From: a virus
Virus record (IMG/VR): IMGVR_UViG_3300036846_000278
Coordinates: 1 to 42,285 of that record
Length of the DNA: 42,285 bases
Strand: one strand, 5' to 3'
Shown here piece by piece: positions 6,604 to 42,285 of the stretch. The notes under the pieces are model-generated. The model was not told the DNA's origin and ran no database searches. It saw only the letters and a list, made by a program, of their open reading frames with translations. How positions within the stretch are numbered: position 1 is the stretch's first letter; each line of letters begins with the position of its first letter. A program made the translations under genes and the position numbers.

Positions 6604-6640
6604 GGTTTAGCAGAAAAAGATTATATTTTTCTGCTAAACC
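6604..6640. repeat. Perfect 15-bp inverted repeat
   Basis: GGTTTAGCAGAAAAA (6604-6618) and its exact inverse (6626-6640) flank a 7-nt loop, 14 bp past the stop of the SprT-like gene. The A and T tracts are inside the stem and no U-run follows it. It may be an operator, an RNA-processing site or an unusual terminator. Confidence 0.65.
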
Positions 6641-9629: not shown

Positions 9630-10145
9630 ATGTTTCAGCTTGAACGCACGCCGGAGATTGTCGAGGCGCTGACCGAAGCGCTGTTTCAGACGCGCGGGGA
9701 CATGATCGCGGCCTGCCAGATGCTCAAGATACGGTACCGGCATGTCGTCGCGTGGATGCAGGCCGATGCGGATACCGCGCAGGCGCTCAAGGAGGCGCAG
9801 AAGCAGGGTTGGATGCGGCTAGAGAACGCGGCGATGCAGCGCGCGGTCGAGGGTGTGCCCAAAGGGGTCTATTACAAAGGCAAGTGCGTCGGGGTCGAGA
9901 CGGTCTATTCGGATGGGCTGCTGAGTCAGATGCTCAAGGCCAGAGTGCCCGGCTACGGTGAGGACGGGGGGCATTCAGGCATGACGGTCAACGTCGCGGT
10001 CATGCCAAGGGCGAACTCGTATGAGGAGTGGACAGTTCAGCGCAATGCGGCGCTGGCCGGGGGCCGTGAGAGTACTGCTTCGCTTGCGGCCTCCGAGCGG
10101 GTGATAGAAGGCAAGACTATTAATGGCATGCCTGATGTACTGTAG
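9630..10145 (+). CDS. terS: Terminase small subunit, 171 aa
   Basis: The N-terminal region (TPEIVEALTEALFQTRGDMIAACQML, then VVAWMQADAD) is a helix-turn-helix for recognising packaging DNA. The middle carries YSDGLLSQMLKARVPGY, close to the common small-terminase motif YDDxLLxxLLKAxxPxxY. The C-terminal 60 residues are variable and may bind the large subunit. No clear ribosome-binding site precedes ATG 9630. TTGAAC at 9596 and TATTTT at 9618 (16 nt apart) could be a promoter placed very close to the start. The gene is much more GC-rich than its flanks. The TAG stop is followed in the same frame by the large subunit. Confidence 0.85.
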   Translation: MFQLERTPEIVEALTEALFQTRGDMIAACQMLKIRYRHVVAWMQADADTAQALKEAQKQGWMRLENAAMQRAVEGVPKGVYYKGKCVGVETVYSDGLLSQMLKARVPGYGEDGGHSGMTVNVAVMPRANSYEEWTVQRNAALAGGRESTASLAASERVIEGKTINGMPDVL

Positions 10146-10154
10146 GAGCGGACC

Positions 10155-11657
10155 ATAGATGCGGTCTGGGAACCACAACCGGGGCCGCAAGCGCTTGCTG
10201 TATCAGCGAGGTTTATCACTGAATTATTATATGGTGGTGCGCGTGGCGGTGGCAAGACAAGCTTCTTGCTCGGGGATTACTTACAGGACGTTGACCAAGG
10301 GCCGGGATGGAAGGGTATCCTTTTTCGTAAGACTTATCCTGAGCTGGAAGAAATCATATCCCAGGCCAAGGACATGTATTTACACCTTGGAGCAACATGG
10401 AAGGTTTCGGATCGGACGTTTACGTTCCCGACTGGTGCCACGCTGAAATTACGGCACATTGATAGTGATGATGACGCAAGCCACTATCAGGGGCATTCTT
10501 ATGCATGGGTTGGATTTGATGAAATCGGTAACTGGCCGAACCTGAGCAATTATAATAAGCTCAAAGCGACACTGAGAAGCACTGATATTAATGTAACGCA
10601 TATGCGGATCAGAGCGACAGCGAACCCCGGTGGGCCGGGACACCATGCGGTTAAGAACTATTTTATAGACCATAACCCTCAGGGCTTTGAAATGGTCAAG
10701 AGCCAAGAGGGTACTACACGGATGTTTATTCCTGCTAAGGTCACAGATAACAAGATACTATTAACAGTCGATCCTCAGTATATAAGCCGGTTAAGAGAGG
10801 TGGGAAGTCCTGAGTTGGTAAGAGCGTGGCTAGAGGGTGACTGGAATGTCATTACGGGAGCGTATTTTCCAGAGTTTAGCACGTTGGAACACGTCATTGA
10901 CCCGTTCTCTATACCGCCGTACTGGCTTAAGTTTATGTCAGGCGATTGGGGTAGTGCTAGTCCCTTTAGTTATCACTGGATCGCTGTTTCTGATGGGACT
11001 ATTAATATACCTGATCCTAGACCGCCAGATGTGAACTGCCCGGTAGGAATGACGATACGCCCACCAAGGTTAATCCCTAAGGGTGCCTTAGTCGTGTATC
11101 GGGAATTTTACGGAGCTTTGGTGGGGATGATAAATGTAGGGCTAAGATGGCCCGCGAGTCGGGTTGCGGAAGGGATCAAGGCAAGGACACCCAGGGGTGA
11201 GAAAATTACGTTTAGGGTTATGGACCCTAGCGCTTTCAAGCAGGATGGAGGGCCTAGCCATGCGGAGGTTATGGCAAGGGCCGGGGTATATTTTAGAGCC
11301 GCTGATAATACTCGGCTTCCGGGTTGGGGTGCTATACGGGAGAGGCTTACGGGACTCGATGCGGACCCAGACATTAATAATGGTGTCGGTGTACCGATGT
11401 TGTATATCTTTAATACATGCCCGAACCTTATAAGGACATTGCCAGCATTACAGCATGACAGTAAAGACCCAGAAGATTGTGATACCAACGGTGAGGATCA
11501 TGCGCCGGATGACTTGCGGTATGGCTGTATGGCACGGCCTTGGGTAAGACCTAAACCACCGCCGGAGCCATTAATGCCTAAGACATTAGAGACGGTGACA
11601 CTAAACGAGCTATTTACGGACCATGAGAGGAATATCAGGGTGGATTACGGTCTGTAG
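10155..11657 (+). CDS. terL: Terminase large subunit, apparent ATA start, 500 aa
   Basis: The packaging motor and nuclease. The Walker A motif GGARGGGKT is at residues 27-35, Walker B VGFDEIGNW at about 120-127 and the coupling motif RATANPGGPG near 153-162. Nuclease acidic residues lie in FMSGDWG (about D264), VMDPSAF (about D357) and DHAPDDLRYG (near 448-457). No ATG, GTG, TTG or CTG lies between the preceding TAG and Walker A. The best start is ATA 10155-10157, six nt after GGAG, giving the typical N-terminus DAVWEPQPGPQALAVS. ATG 10159 is out of frame. Alternatives are readthrough of TAG 10143, a frameshift or a sequence error. Confidence 0.9.
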   Translation: MDAVWEPQPGPQALAVSARFITELLYGGARGGGKTSFLLGDYLQDVDQGPGWKGILFRKTYPELEEIISQAKDMYLHLGATWKVSDRTFTFPTGATLKLRHIDSDDDASHYQGHSYAWVGFDEIGNWPNLSNYNKLKATLRSTDINVTHMRIRATANPGGPGHHAVKNYFIDHNPQGFEMVKSQEGTTRMFIPAKVTDNKILLTVDPQYISRLREVGSPELVRAWLEGDWNVITGAYFPEFSTLEHVIDPFSIPPYWLKFMSGDWGSASPFSYHWIAVSDGTINIPDPRPPDVNCPVGMTIRPPRLIPKGALVVYREFYGALVGMINVGLRWPASRVAEGIKARTPRGEKITFRVMDPSAFKQDGGPSHAEVMARAGVYFRAADNTRLPGWGAIRERLTGLDADPDINNGVGVPMLYIFNTCPNLIRTLPALQHDSKDPEDCDTNGEDHAPDDLRYGCMARPWVRPKPPPEPLMPKTLETVTLNELFTDHERNIRVDYGL

Positions 11658-12016: not shown

Positions 12017-14431
12017 ATGGCTTCAAAGGCTGATAACAAATATTTGACGCAGCAAAACCCCGAAGGTGCTGCTACTGAGCGGCGCGGCTATTGGCAATCA
12101 CAGATCGAAAAATCTAACAAGCGCTGGTATACATTTGAAACTGATGGTGACACAGTTTTAAACCGCTTTATGCTTGAAAGTGGTTATGTTGGCGATAAGT
12201 ACAACATATTATATTCGTCCACAGAGACAATCAAGCCAAGTCTGTACGGGCAAACGCCTAAGGTGCAGTGTAAAACCCGACAGCAAGACACCGAAGATAA
12301 CATTAAAGTCGCTGCGGCTATGTTGCTTGAGCAGATCGGGCAATATGCAGTCGATATGCTTGATTTTGACTATGTTATGCAGAATTGTGTCGCTGATTAT
12401 TGCTTACCCGGTTTAGGGGTTGCGTGGGTTCGCTATGATCCCAAATTTTCCAAGAAGCCTGTTAATGATAATGATGATGAAGAGGCACAAGCCGAAGGTG
12501 CTATTCAGGAAACATTGACGTTTGAAGGTTTAGCGCTTGATTATGTCACATTTAAGGATTTTCGGTGCGGGTTAGCGCGCAATTGGTTTGAAGTTCCTTG
12601 GGTTTCGCGTAAGGTGTACTTTTCCAAGTCCCAAGCTACTGAGAGATTTGGGAAAGAGAAAGCCAACAAGCTGAAATATAGCTTTAATGCACAGAATATC
12701 AAGAATAGGACTGGTGAGCGGTCTAACTCTGATGATGGCGCGACTAAACAAGCGATTATCTATGAGATATGGGATAAAGTTAATCTCGAGGTTGTATGGT
12801 ATTCGGATGATTACGAAGATGACGTAATTGATGAAGTTGATGATCCATATAAGCTTGAAAACTTCTTTCCATGTCCACGCCCATTAAGGGCTGTATGGTC
12901 GCCGAGAAGCTTTATCCCGAAAGCGCTCTATAGTCAGTATAAGCCACAAGCTGCGGAGCTTGATCGGCTGACAGAGCGTATACGCTATCTGACAGAGGCA
13001 TTAAAGGTCCGTGGTTTGTATGACGGATCGCAACCGAATTTGTCTAATGTGCTGGATGGTCCCGGCAATAAGATGATCCCTATTCAGGATTGGACGGGGT
13101 TCATGGGAAATGGGGGACTTGAGGGTGTCGTTCAGTGGGTTCCTATTAAAGACGTTGTTGAGTGCCTTTCGCAGTTATTCAACCAACGTGAGATATGCAA
13201 AAATGAGATATATGAGATTACTGGCTTTGGCGATATTATGCGGGGGATCAGCAAAGCGAGTGAAACGTTAGGCGCGCAAGAGATTAAGTCTGATTGGGCA
13301 ACTGGTCGCCTTAAGGACATGCAGCGAGAAGTCCAACGGTTTTGCCGGGACATTATTCGGATATTCATAGAACTAGCTGCCGAGCATTTTAGCAAACAGT
13401 CATTAATGCTCTATAGTGGAATTACGATCCCACCGCCAACGCCTGCGGAAGTCCAAGCGGCAAGCCAGTACAAGCAAGCACAAGCACAGTTTCCGCAGCA
13501 ACAGCAGCAATATGCGCAGATGGCGCAACAGGCTCAGGCTCAGGGACAACCACCGCCGCCACCACCGCAACCCCCACAAGCGCCACCACCGCCGCAAGGG
13601 GAAGTCATACGACAGATGTTTGACAAGGTAGTGGCACTCATAAAGAAAGATAAATTACGGGTTGCTGCAATAGGGATTGAAACAGATTCTACGATCCTGC
13701 CTGATGAACAGAAGGAACGTGAGGATCGGATGCAATTCCTGTCAAGTATGGGGGCATTCTTACAGCAAGCCGCGCCTTTAGCCATGCAATTCCCTGATAT
13801 GCGGGGATTGCTAGGCGGTATAATGATGTTCACATTAAGGACATTTAGTGCCTCTAGGCCGCTTGAAAAAGAGTTTGAGAACTTCCAAGCGAAATTGCAA
13901 GCTGCACCACCTACACCACCACCGGGACAGAACGATGCGGGACAAGCTGCACAAGCGGTTGCGCAGATCAAGGCGCAGAATGATGCTCAAATCGCCGGAC
14001 AGCAAGATCAAACCAAGCGATACGAAATCGACAACCATACCCAAAACGAAAGACTAAAGCTGCAACAGGATCATGAGTTCCGTATGGGACAATTGAGCTT
14101 GCAATCACAACAGAACGATTTGCAGAGCAAGAAGCTCGGGCTTGATACGCTTGGTGAAGAACGTGCGCATGATTTGGAGAAGCAACGGACTGCCGTTGCT
14201 GCCGCGCATGAAATGACAGCATTAACAACGGGCCATGCTCAAGATGCCGTACAAGCGGAATTGGATCGCCAGCATGAAGCACAACAGAATGAAGCTGATC
14301 GGCAAAATGATGGTGATATAGCGCAATTGGGGCAAGAATATCAGAATGAGCGGATTGGTATTAAGCAAGCACATCAACTAGAAATGGAAGATAAAAAGGG
14401 TGTGCCGGGTGGTGATGGTGGAAACGGATAG
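12017..14431 (+). CDS. Portal protein, 804 aa
   Basis: Probable dodecameric portal of the podovirus (P22-like) class, the DNA gate at the head vertex and docking site for terminase. Evidence is its size, its place after terL and before scaffold and coat genes, and an N-terminal region ([32 protein letters not shown]) typical of large portals. Mid-protein [21 protein letters not shown] and the helix-rich core suit the portal stem. Around residues 490-540 there is a Gln- and Pro-rich linker with poly-Pro, and the last 200 residues form a long Gln-rich helical tail, perhaps the barrel. Start ATG 12017 has GAGGG upstream; a TTG 14 codons earlier is less likely. Confidence 0.8.
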
Positions 14432-39621: not shown

Positions 39622-39842
39622 GGACCAACCGGAGGAACAAGCCACGACTGGACGGGCGCACCCGGTGTCGTCGGCGGCACTGGCGAAGTCCGGGCCGGTC
39701 CCGCTGCATGAGGGACAGGCAAACCCGGTGTGGACGGCGGACTAGGGGCCGCTTGGTTGTCAACAACCGCATCTTGTGTGATTTCCTCGGCTTCATCGAT
39801 TTCATCTTCCGACAAGGGATCGGGTTGTGATTTTTTAGTCAT
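39618..39842 (-). CDS. Pro-rich disordered protein, 74 aa
   Basis: The start, ATG 39840-39842, has GGAGGAAAAAG upstream and overlaps the previous TGA (ATGA). The first 30 residues are acidic (DPLSEDEIDEAEEITQD), the rest Pro-, Ala- and Val-rich (SPPSTPGLPVPHAAGPARTS). It is very probably disordered. The GC-rich half (about 39620-39760) contrasts with its AT-rich start. The low complexity prevents naming a role; a linker-like or decoy function is possible. Confidence 0.6.
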   Translation of the reverse strand: MTKKSQPDPLSEDEIDEAEEITQDAVVDNQAAPSPPSTPGLPVPHAAGPARTSPVPPTTPGAPVQSWLVPPVGP

Positions 39843-40066
39843 CTTTTTCCTCCATTAATATTTATCTGCTCCGTATGTTCTGCAATGACTTTTGCAAAAC
39901 GCCTGCAAATCTCAGGATATTGTTTTGGAGTCGTATCTGCCAGTCGTACTATTCCCATAAGCCTTAACTCCTTCTGCAAACCATTTTTTATAATGGTATT
40001 ACTAAGATGAGGATTTATCATATCCATGATATCTTCCTCATTGGGAAAGTTAGACTCCTGTTCCAT
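39839..40066 (-). CDS. Paralogue B of the tandem pair, 75 aa
   Basis: The body (EEDIMDMINPHLSNTIIKNG, then MGIVRLADTTPKQYPEICRRFAKVIAEHTEQ) matches residue for residue the C-terminal half of the upstream neighbour at 40076-40489 (about half identical by eye). It lacks the N-terminal helix and Pro-rich linker found there. The domain, a helical one with LMGxxRLxxxxPxQYxxxxRRFxxVIAxH, resembles small C-terminal modules of phage recombination and ssDNA proteins. Start ATG 40064-40066 lies next to a YATTAATR site; the ribosome-binding site is weak. Confidence 0.7.
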   Translation of the reverse strand: MEQESNFPNEEDIMDMINPHLSNTIIKNGLQKELRLMGIVRLADTTPKQYPEICRRFAKVIAEHTEQININGGKR

Positions 40067-40075
40067 TAATGCTCT

Positions 40076-40489
40076 CTACATGATACTAGTAGAACCGCCT
40101 GCATGTTGTGCAATTACTGCACTAAAGCGCCGGTGCAGTTCGGCATATTGTTCGGGCCGTGCTTCTGGCAAACGGGGAATGCCCATCTGTCCAAGCACTT
40201 CGGAGAAACCGGCTTTCACCTGATCTTGCGACAGGTACGGGTTAATCAGGTTCATAATGTCAGCTTCACCGAGAACCGGGGCTTGCGGCAAATCGACCGT
40301 AGGGGCCGCAACAGGCGGGGTATGCGCGGCGAAAGGGTCGAAGTGTGCCGGATTGACTTGGAGCGGCTGTGTGGGCTGCTCTAGGGCCGTGAGACCCCCT
40401 CCGTTTGGCTTGGCAGGAGTTATTTCATCACTGGCAAGTATGTTACGTATTTCGCGGAGTTCTACCAAAATCTCTTCTAGGATACCCAT
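40076..40489 (-). CDS. Paralogue A of the tandem pair, 137 aa
   Basis: The N-terminus is a helix (GILEEILVELREIRNILASD), followed by a Pro/Gln-rich linker (about residues 25-75). The C-terminal domain (EADIMNLINPYLSQDQVKAG, then MGIPRLPEARPEQYAELHRRFSAVIAQH) is shared with the next gene. It is GC-rich (about 40140-40420), unlike the AT-rich sister. AAAGG precedes ATG 40487-40489, directly after the prim-pol stop. The function is unknown; the domain may bind the primase-helicase or ssDNA-binding protein. Confidence 0.7.
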   Translation of the reverse strand: MGILEEILVELREIRNILASDEITPAKPNGGGLTALEQPTQPLQVNPAHFDPFAAHTPPVAAPTVDLPQAPVLGEADIMNLINPYLSQDQVKAGFSEVLGQMGIPRLPEARPEQYAELHRRFSAVIAQHAGGSTSIM

Positions 40490-40499
40490 AAAAAACCTT

Positions 40500-42285
40500 T
40501 CAATCTAAATCAGGCAAGCTGGATGATGGTAAGGAAACGGGTTGTGCCAGCTTATACACAATCGCTCCTAATCTCTTTTCATCTTCTATAACTAAAACTT
40601 CCTCAAAAATCAGTTTATCAATCGCTCTCCGCATTGTTGGATCACCAACGTTAAACATACGGCAAAGGTCTTTAGTAGTCAAGCCATTTCTTGATTGTGC
40701 AATCGCCATTTGAATATTTGCATACAACTTCGGATCACGTGCCTTACGTTCAGCAACATCTACTTGATTAACGTAATCCTCGAAATCAGGGATTTCCATG
40801 TCAGGCGGCGGCGTGTCCCAAGTCACAGTGTCAGATATTAATGGTATCTGTAATTTGCCAACGTCTCGACTTTGCATGATAAGCCAAGCTACTCCGTCGA
40901 AATTGTAGTGAGATTTAGTGTAAAGCTGTATTTGTGCGTCAACGGCACCCTGTTGCGCCACGGACCCTGATATACGATCCATGATGTTGCCTTTATCTCC
41001 GCCCGCAGGGGCCTTGCGGTCATGCTTAACGGATAAAACTGCACAAACATATTCACCATCATCACTCACAATAGCATTCACATTTTCGATCTGTTCATAC
41101 TCTTGCATGTTGAGGTTGCGTGTTGTGCCTTCCATATGAAATCTATTAACAGGTTCTATCACAACCAACCAAGGCCGTGTTGTGTCTGTTCTACGGATAA
41201 ATTCCCTAATCGTTTCTGCGCCTTCAAATCCCATCGGAAGGCGATATTTTTTACCGTCTCGTTTCTTGCTAGCCAAGTTCCAGTAATAAAACCGCGCAAA
41301 TCCTTCGGTAGCTTCTTGCTCAGTCATATCGTGCCATTCTGTGTCACAGATATGCTTGAACATATCTTTAATCTTGTTCTCTTGCCGCCAGTCACGCTCT
41401 TCAAGTGCTACATAAAGAACATTGCACACTGTCATGCCACGCCCGAAGATCGGCCTACCGAATAAAGCATGGAGAACAAATTTATATGCTAATGTAGTTT
41501 TACCTTGTTTCGGCGGTCCTGATAAAGCTGTGTGTGTATCAAATGGTATAAACCCATCAATCATAAATTCAAGTTCTTTTTTGGGTTTATGCATGATTTC
41601 AACAAAGCAAAATGGTTCGGCAATTTCGTCATTTGTGCCGCCTACTAGCATTTGCGGCATTGTAACGATTTCGCCAACAGGTGCAAGCTCAGGCGCAATC
41701 TGTGATACTCTGTCAAGTGGCGCTATTAATGGTCCTGAGTCAAAGTCTGTAAGTGGCTCACCTAACGTTGCCGCAAGCTGTTCAGCCGCAGCACGCTTGT
41801 TGCCATCGTAAATGCATTCAGAGAGTAGAGATATAGGCGTGCGGCGTCCCTCGGTAATATCACCAAGGTCATGCACGCCAAAATCCTTGATTGTGCCGTC
41901 AGCGAGGATCGAAATATCTTCCTCAAGATCGCGGCCTAGGTCGGCACTGCTAATCCGGTATCCATCGCCATGCACGCGCACTAGGCCAGCTAGCAAATGC
42001 GGTACCCATTCGTGAATGCGGCGGCGTGCTTCGTTGTTCAGCTTACGAAAAATATTCTCGTCGGTGGGGTACTCTATGATATGCCGCCTTATATCAGGGG
42101 CATTAATAGTTTCCCCGTCTTCCTCGACAAGTAATTTTACCGTTGCAAGGTCCAGATCATCAAACGGATCGAACCCGTCATTGATTACCCTCGCAAGCCT
42201 ATGCGGGCGGTGTGAAGCGCTCTCACCTTTGCGGGCGATTGTGCCGGGGATACGGCTAATACGCGAGGCATTAAAAACGGTTGGG
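40500..42285 (-). CDS. Primase-polymerase/helicase, C-terminal part (continues at 711-1)
   Basis: The frame is open from the right end of the window and continues from the piece at 1-711. The end of the primase part carries RIPGTIARKGES. After a helical linker comes a RepA/RecA-like helicase: Walker A GPPKQGKTT (about residues 457-465 of the whole protein), a Walker B region PWLVVIEPV, and a KHDRKAPAGGDKG arm. The last 80 residues form a winged helix (IQMAIAQSRNGLTTKDLCRMFNVGDPTMRRAI), as in primase-helicases. The result is a single polypeptide for priming and unwinding. In the window, 42177-42285 repeats 1-109; the real gene is one copy. The TTG at 41994-41996 is internal, not a start. Confidence 0.85.
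   Translation of the reverse strand, partial: PTVFNASRISRIPGTIARKGESASHRPHRLARVINDGFDPFDDLDLATVKLLVEEDGETINAPDIRRHIIEYPTDENIFRKLNNEARRRIHEWVPHLLAGLVRVHGDGYRISSADLGRDLEEDISILADGTIKDFGVHDLGDITEGRRTPISLLSECIYDGNKRAAAEQLAATLGEPLTDFDSGPLIAPLDRVSQIAPELAPVGEIVTMPQMLVGGTNDEIAEPFCFVEIMHKPKKELEFMIDGFIPFDTHTALSGPPKQGKTTLAYKFVLHALFGRPIFGRGMTVCNVLYVALEERDWRQENKIKDMFKHICDTEWHDMTEQEATEGFARFYYWNLASKKRDGKKYRLPMGFEGAETIREFIRRTDTTRPWLVVIEPVNRFHMEGTTRNLNMQEYEQIENVNAIVSDDGEYVCAVLSVKHDRKAPAGGDKGNIMDRISGSVAQQGAVDAQIQLYTKSHYNFDGVAWLIMQSRDVGKLQIPLISDTVTWDTPPPDMEIPDFEDYVNQVDVAERKARDPKLYANIQMAIAQSRNGLTTKDLCRMFNVGDPTMRRAIDKLIFEEVLVIEDEKRLGAIVYKLAQPVSLPSSSLPDLD
42177..42285. repeat. Terminal direct repeat, right copy
   Basis: Exact copy of 1-109. 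It should be removed when the molecule is treated as circular. Confidence 0.95.

Follow-up and report, generated by a model that had tools for sequence, protein, structure and literature searches.

The infC gene of E. coli starts at AUU, and a T4 rIIB mutant with an AUA start is reportedly partly active. An AUU start is also cited for E. coli pcnB in PMC13009471, a study in which S. aureus infC, ccpN, and citZ start at AUA, with about 10% (up to 30%) of the AUG output in the reporters that were tested. An E. coli rpoS mutant in which ATG had been changed to ATA is described as retaining the protein at an up to 5-fold-lower level in PMC12864459, which also cites Hecht et al. (2017) for an AUA activity in E. 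coli of up to 1% of that of AUG. Termination-reinitiation operates at short gene distances in E. coli and weakens as the distance grows, with a 40 to 80% loss at +14 nt; it still works in part at 13 to 14 nt (PMC10666635). Searches of the open-access literature for a terminase gene that starts at ATA or AUA yielded none among the titles and abstracts listed. Here, we describe a large terminase subunit gene (terL) of a metagenomic phage that, judging from its sequence and those of its relatives, is likely translated from an AUA codon at position 10155.

Results

The stretch of DNA analyzed here (the window; 42,285 nt) is a complete metagenomic phage genome. Positions 1 to 109 and 42177 to 42285 are identical and form an exact direct terminal repeat of 109 bp, and the alignment of a closely related contig (the sister, described below) spans the terminal-repeat joint; together, these observations indicate a closed genome of 42,176 bp. 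The genes compared between the two contigs are collinear and unbroken by frameshifts, and each of them other than terL has a normal start in the window. A large minus-strand open reading frame (ORF), from 40500 onward, crosses the joint.

The terL gene is flanked by terS and by a portal gene at positions 12017 to 14431 (PHROG 12082), and its frame is open through to the stop TAG at 11655 to 11657 (Table 1). Its product matched the Pfam profile Terminase_6N (PF03237) over the cut-off (E = 3.8e-8), as well as PHROG 979 (E = 3.8e-36) and PHROG 2. Thus, the gene combines an ATPase-domain profile match and a Walker A motif with terS and portal neighbors, as a large terminase gene would. A profile search of the whole window gave a single Terminase_6N match, and hence a single copy of terL.

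Table 1. Positions in the window of features at and around the terS-terL junction
Feature	Position	Strand	Basis
terS, small terminase subunit, 171 aa, stop TAG 10143-10145	9630..10145	+	PHROG 4044, E=2e-18; sister (L139) 97% aa identical
AGGAG, Shine-Dalgarno-like, overlapping the terS stop (TAGGAG)	10144..10148	+	sequence
13-nt stretch GAGCGGACCATAG between the terS TAG and the block common to the sister	10146..10158	+	blastn: homology ends at 10145 and resumes at 10159
ATA, proposed terL start codon	10155..10157	+	homologous to TTG (sister) and ATG (L015, L054), 4 codons ahead of WEPQPGPQ
terL, large terminase subunit, 500 aa from the ATA	10155..11657	+	Pfam Terminase_6N, PHROG 979 and 2; 18 IMG/VR loci at 73-98% identity
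ORF from the out-of-frame ATG, 95 codons, competing start	10159..10446	+	open in the window, the sister, and L003; closes after 4-41 codons in other close relatives
WEPQPGPQ, conserved near the TerL N terminus	10167..10190	+	present in relatives
Walker A motif GGARGGGKT	10233..10259	+	sequence

Several other sequence features of the genome were observed. The palindrome ATTAAT, mostly as YATTAATR, occurs at 84 sites in the whole window, compared to about 22 expected from the dinucleotide content (examples of TATTAAT are at 391, 2032, 6591, 9236, and 10118). Several other palindromic hexamers, among them GAATTC, CTGCAG, CGGCCG, and CCGCGG, are absent from the window, with 6 to 12 sites expected. 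The ATTAAT excess is common to the sister (L147) and to L015, L003, L054, L076, L012, and L001 (3- to 6-fold), with none in L004 and L005; as a guess, the sites could serve for protein binding or modification. A near-perfect palindrome with 18-bp arms (GGTTTAGCAGAAAAAGAT/ATATTTTTCTGCTAAACC) lies at 6604 to 6640, between two minus-strand genes, and is matched in the sister at L147 10244 to 10280. Two neighboring minus-strand genes, 39839 to 40066 and 40076 to 40489, are each about 50% identical to the sister's copy of the other over 55 to 57 residues, and this cross-matching suggests an old tandem duplication.

The preliminary description of this locus had stated that there is no in-frame ATG, GTG, TTG, or CTG between the terS TAG and the Walker A motif, even though a typical terminase N terminus ending in GGARGGGKT is encoded there. 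Both statements hold. Past the terS stop, the terL frame reads GAG CGG ACC ATA GAT GCG GTC TGG GAA CCA CAA CCG GGG CCG CAA, with Walker A farther on encoded by GGT GGT GCG CGT GGC GGT GGC AAG ACA, and its first canonical start codon is TTG 10266, downstream of Walker A. This TTG was considered as an internal start and rejected, since Walker A would be lost and the N-terminal codons ahead of it are conserved, with almost all changes synonymous. The ATA begins 9 nt past the terS stop and, as had been noted, lies 6 nt after GGAG (10145 to 10148). The duplex of AGGAG with the anti-Shine-Dalgarno (anti-SD) sequence has an energy of -6.9 kcal/mol, which is in the range of the other genes of the genome and better than about three-quarters of the listed starts, on an ORF list that is heuristic and includes spurious ORFs. 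The terL gene therefore has what is expected of an AUN start: no canonical start before the conserved region, an SD sequence at a proper distance, and a codon homologous to the start of its relatives.

A scan of IMG/VR for relatives of TerL gave the 18 loci of Table 1, some of them partial, plus one distant relative; no relative of the window TerL was found in the bacterial and archaeal genome collection. In the relatives whose loci include the 5' end, the gene begins with ATG, GTG, or TTG, either at WEPQPGPQ or a short distance ahead of it. We collected at least 113 distinct TerL 5' ends, and among the matches listed, a canonical codon lies downstream of the last in-frame stop and ahead of the motif in 112 of 113 (ATG in 90, GTG in 17, and TTG in 5), the window being the sole exception; this tally is mechanical, from scans for WEPQPGPQ, and a canonical codon in the interval is not proof of its being the start. 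In a first set of about 105 ends, the window was likewise the only one without ATG, GTG, or TTG.

The closest relative, IMGVR_UViG_3300036791_000449 (the sister; L139/L147), encodes a TerL that is 98.8% identical in amino acid sequence over 258 residues and a terS product that is 97% identical. Its terL begins TTG AAT GCG GTA TGG, compared to ATA GAT GCG GTC TGG in the window, ATG GAC ACG GTA TGG in L015, and ATG AAC ACG GTA TGG in L054; at the same position, ATG is also found in L008, L009, and L022, and GTG is found in L004. Aligned codon for codon, the ATA thus coincides with the start codon of the relatives and precedes the conserved W by four codons. This homologous position is the strongest evidence that the ATA may act as a start, and it supports the earlier proposal that 10155 is the best start position. 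In the 257 TerL codons that were compared downstream of the start, the window and the sister differ by 26 synonymous and 2 nonsynonymous changes, one of the latter falling in codon 2, on the boundary of the replaced stretch. This pattern indicates that the TerL frame is under purifying selection from its N terminus.

The preliminary description had also suggested checking the relatives for ATG or ATA at this codon, and there the comparison gave ATG (L015 and L054) or TTG (sister), with ATA in none. No contig in the IMG/VR scan other than the window has ATA, ATC, or ATT at the start position before the motif, nor does any other share its exact terS-terL junction; hence, the ATA is attested by a single assembly. 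Retention of an AUN start among relatives, which would be supportive rather than strictly defining, is therefore not seen here. Conservation of the ATA would have excluded a base error, while initiation itself does not require it. The main rival to an AUA start is accordingly that the true or prevalent codon at 10155 is ATG, with G at 10157, and that the contig consensus shows A through a base error or a minority allele. The ATA is one substitution away from the ATG of L015 and L054, and no second assembly bears it out. We nevertheless consider this explanation unlikely: the remainder of the genome looks accurate by the collinearity, intact frames, and normal starts noted above, 26 of the 28 codon differences in terL after the start are synonymous, and the nearest relative has TTG at this codon, so that ATG is not the obvious expectation.

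The junction itself sets the window apart from the sister, which holds 422 nt with a small 134-aa ORF where the window has 13 nt. The terS-terL interval is variable within the group, ranging from an overlap up to 2.8 kb of small ORFs, and terS directly adjoins terL also in L054, L015, L106, and L079. The window junction could reflect either a loss of the 422-nt block or an older layout. The 134-aa ORF of the sister (L147 13949 to 14353), which is absent from the window, has a 67% identical homologue in L024, likewise between terS and terL, and weakly matches a putative structural protein from Azobacteroides phage ProJPt-Bp1. The 13-nt stretch shares an 8-nt match, AGCGGACC, with the sequence after terS in L012; we considered this match as a possible remnant of a small ORF since lost, a question that so short a stretch does not settle. 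The RNA of the window junction folds more stably than shuffled sequences (z = -3.2, compared to -0.3 for the sister), forming a hairpin that starts at 10160 and includes part of the AUG at 10159. We ascribe no role to this hairpin, since it would be hidden under a terminating ribosome.

In the window, terS and terL share a frame with the TAG alone between them, as readthrough of this stop into a TerS-TerL fusion, one of the alternatives raised at the outset, would demand. An open in-frame continuation is not kept in the relatives, however: the terS TAG of the sister precedes 422 nt with more stops in that frame, and terL of L054 and L015 is in a different frame, overlapping the terS stop as TAATG. 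Moreover, TAG is an ordinary stop in this genome, ending 14 of the 55 ORFs, including the portal gene, on the heuristic list with its spurious ORFs, and no tRNA genes were found in the window. Readthrough is thus quite improbable. Still less credence is due to a defective genome, in which terL is not made and the assembled molecule is a deletion variant that is helper dependent or dead. The junction does lack the 422 nt of the sister, including its TTG start, but the assembled genome is closed, terL is intact, and a terS adjoining terL is the natural layout of the four relatives named above.

The ATG at 10159 is out of frame, as originally described, and opens an unrelated ORF that is probably a chance occurrence and, on present evidence, does not constitute a separate gene. 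Two further explanations involve this ATG, which has a usable SD sequence at 10 nt: initiation there with a subsequent shift to the terL frame, or displacement of the ATG by an indel error. Both are hardly credible, since in the sister, itself a separate contig, the ATG stands in the identical wrong phase, the shift would be needed within two codons (ATG CGG TCT, ahead of WEP) in a sequence with no slippery heptamer, and in most close relatives the +1 frame is soon closed (Table 1).

Discussion

Most likely, terL does start at the ATA, though only weakly, and low-level initiation at this codon is probably helped by termination-reinitiation from terS. Ribosomes ending terS at UAG 10143, or 30S subunits at the overlapping AGGAG, could reach the AUA, and the 6-nt spacing would put it into the P site; TerL would then be begun with initiator tRNA at a low rate. 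Since only a small number of terminase motors is required in each cell, a phage may tolerate a weak start, and a low output of TerL would meet the demand for this packaging motor. The decoding of AUA by the initiator tRNA, its coupling to terS termination, and the sufficiency of a low rate are steps that we infer. Counting against an AUA start, the out-of-frame AUG 4 nt downstream would compete with it. It is conceivable, if doubtful, that the arrangement is a natural throttle on terminase dose, in which the AUA start is coupled to the terS stop and the out-of-frame AUG acts as a competing sink.

If real, the AUA start would have practical consequences. Standard gene callers, which accept ATG, GTG, and TTG, would start terL at TTG 10266 or later and would thus drop Walker A from a hallmark gene used in phage classification. 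The locus would also serve as a natural experiment on the smallest supply of terminase that a phage can survive on and on whether AUA initiation becomes workable when coupled to an upstream stop. More broadly, the rare start codons, a class already known, would gain a further example.

The ATA of terL would extend a rare, though previously documented, type of start codon to a new setting. Among its relatives, the window resembles the sister in its nearly identical terminase subunits and in placing the start at the same codon; it differs in that terL of the sister starts with TTG and is separated from terS by the 134-aa ORF. With L054 and L015/L076 it shares a terS followed directly by terL and a start four codons ahead of WEPQPGPQ, whereas the start in those genomes is an ATG that overlaps the terS stop as TAATG. 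Like E. coli infC and pcnB, terL would have an AUN start codon, which is expression limiting in those genes; they differ in having AUU, in being other genes, and in having been shown by experiment. The nearest likeness in the codon itself is to S. aureus infC, ccpN, and citZ, in which the AUA likewise follows an SD sequence and reduced expression relative to AUG is a feature; these are cellular genes with extended SD sequences, established by ribosome profiling and reporters (PMC13009471), whereas terL is a phage packaging gene with a 5-nt SD sequence, proposed from sequence alone.
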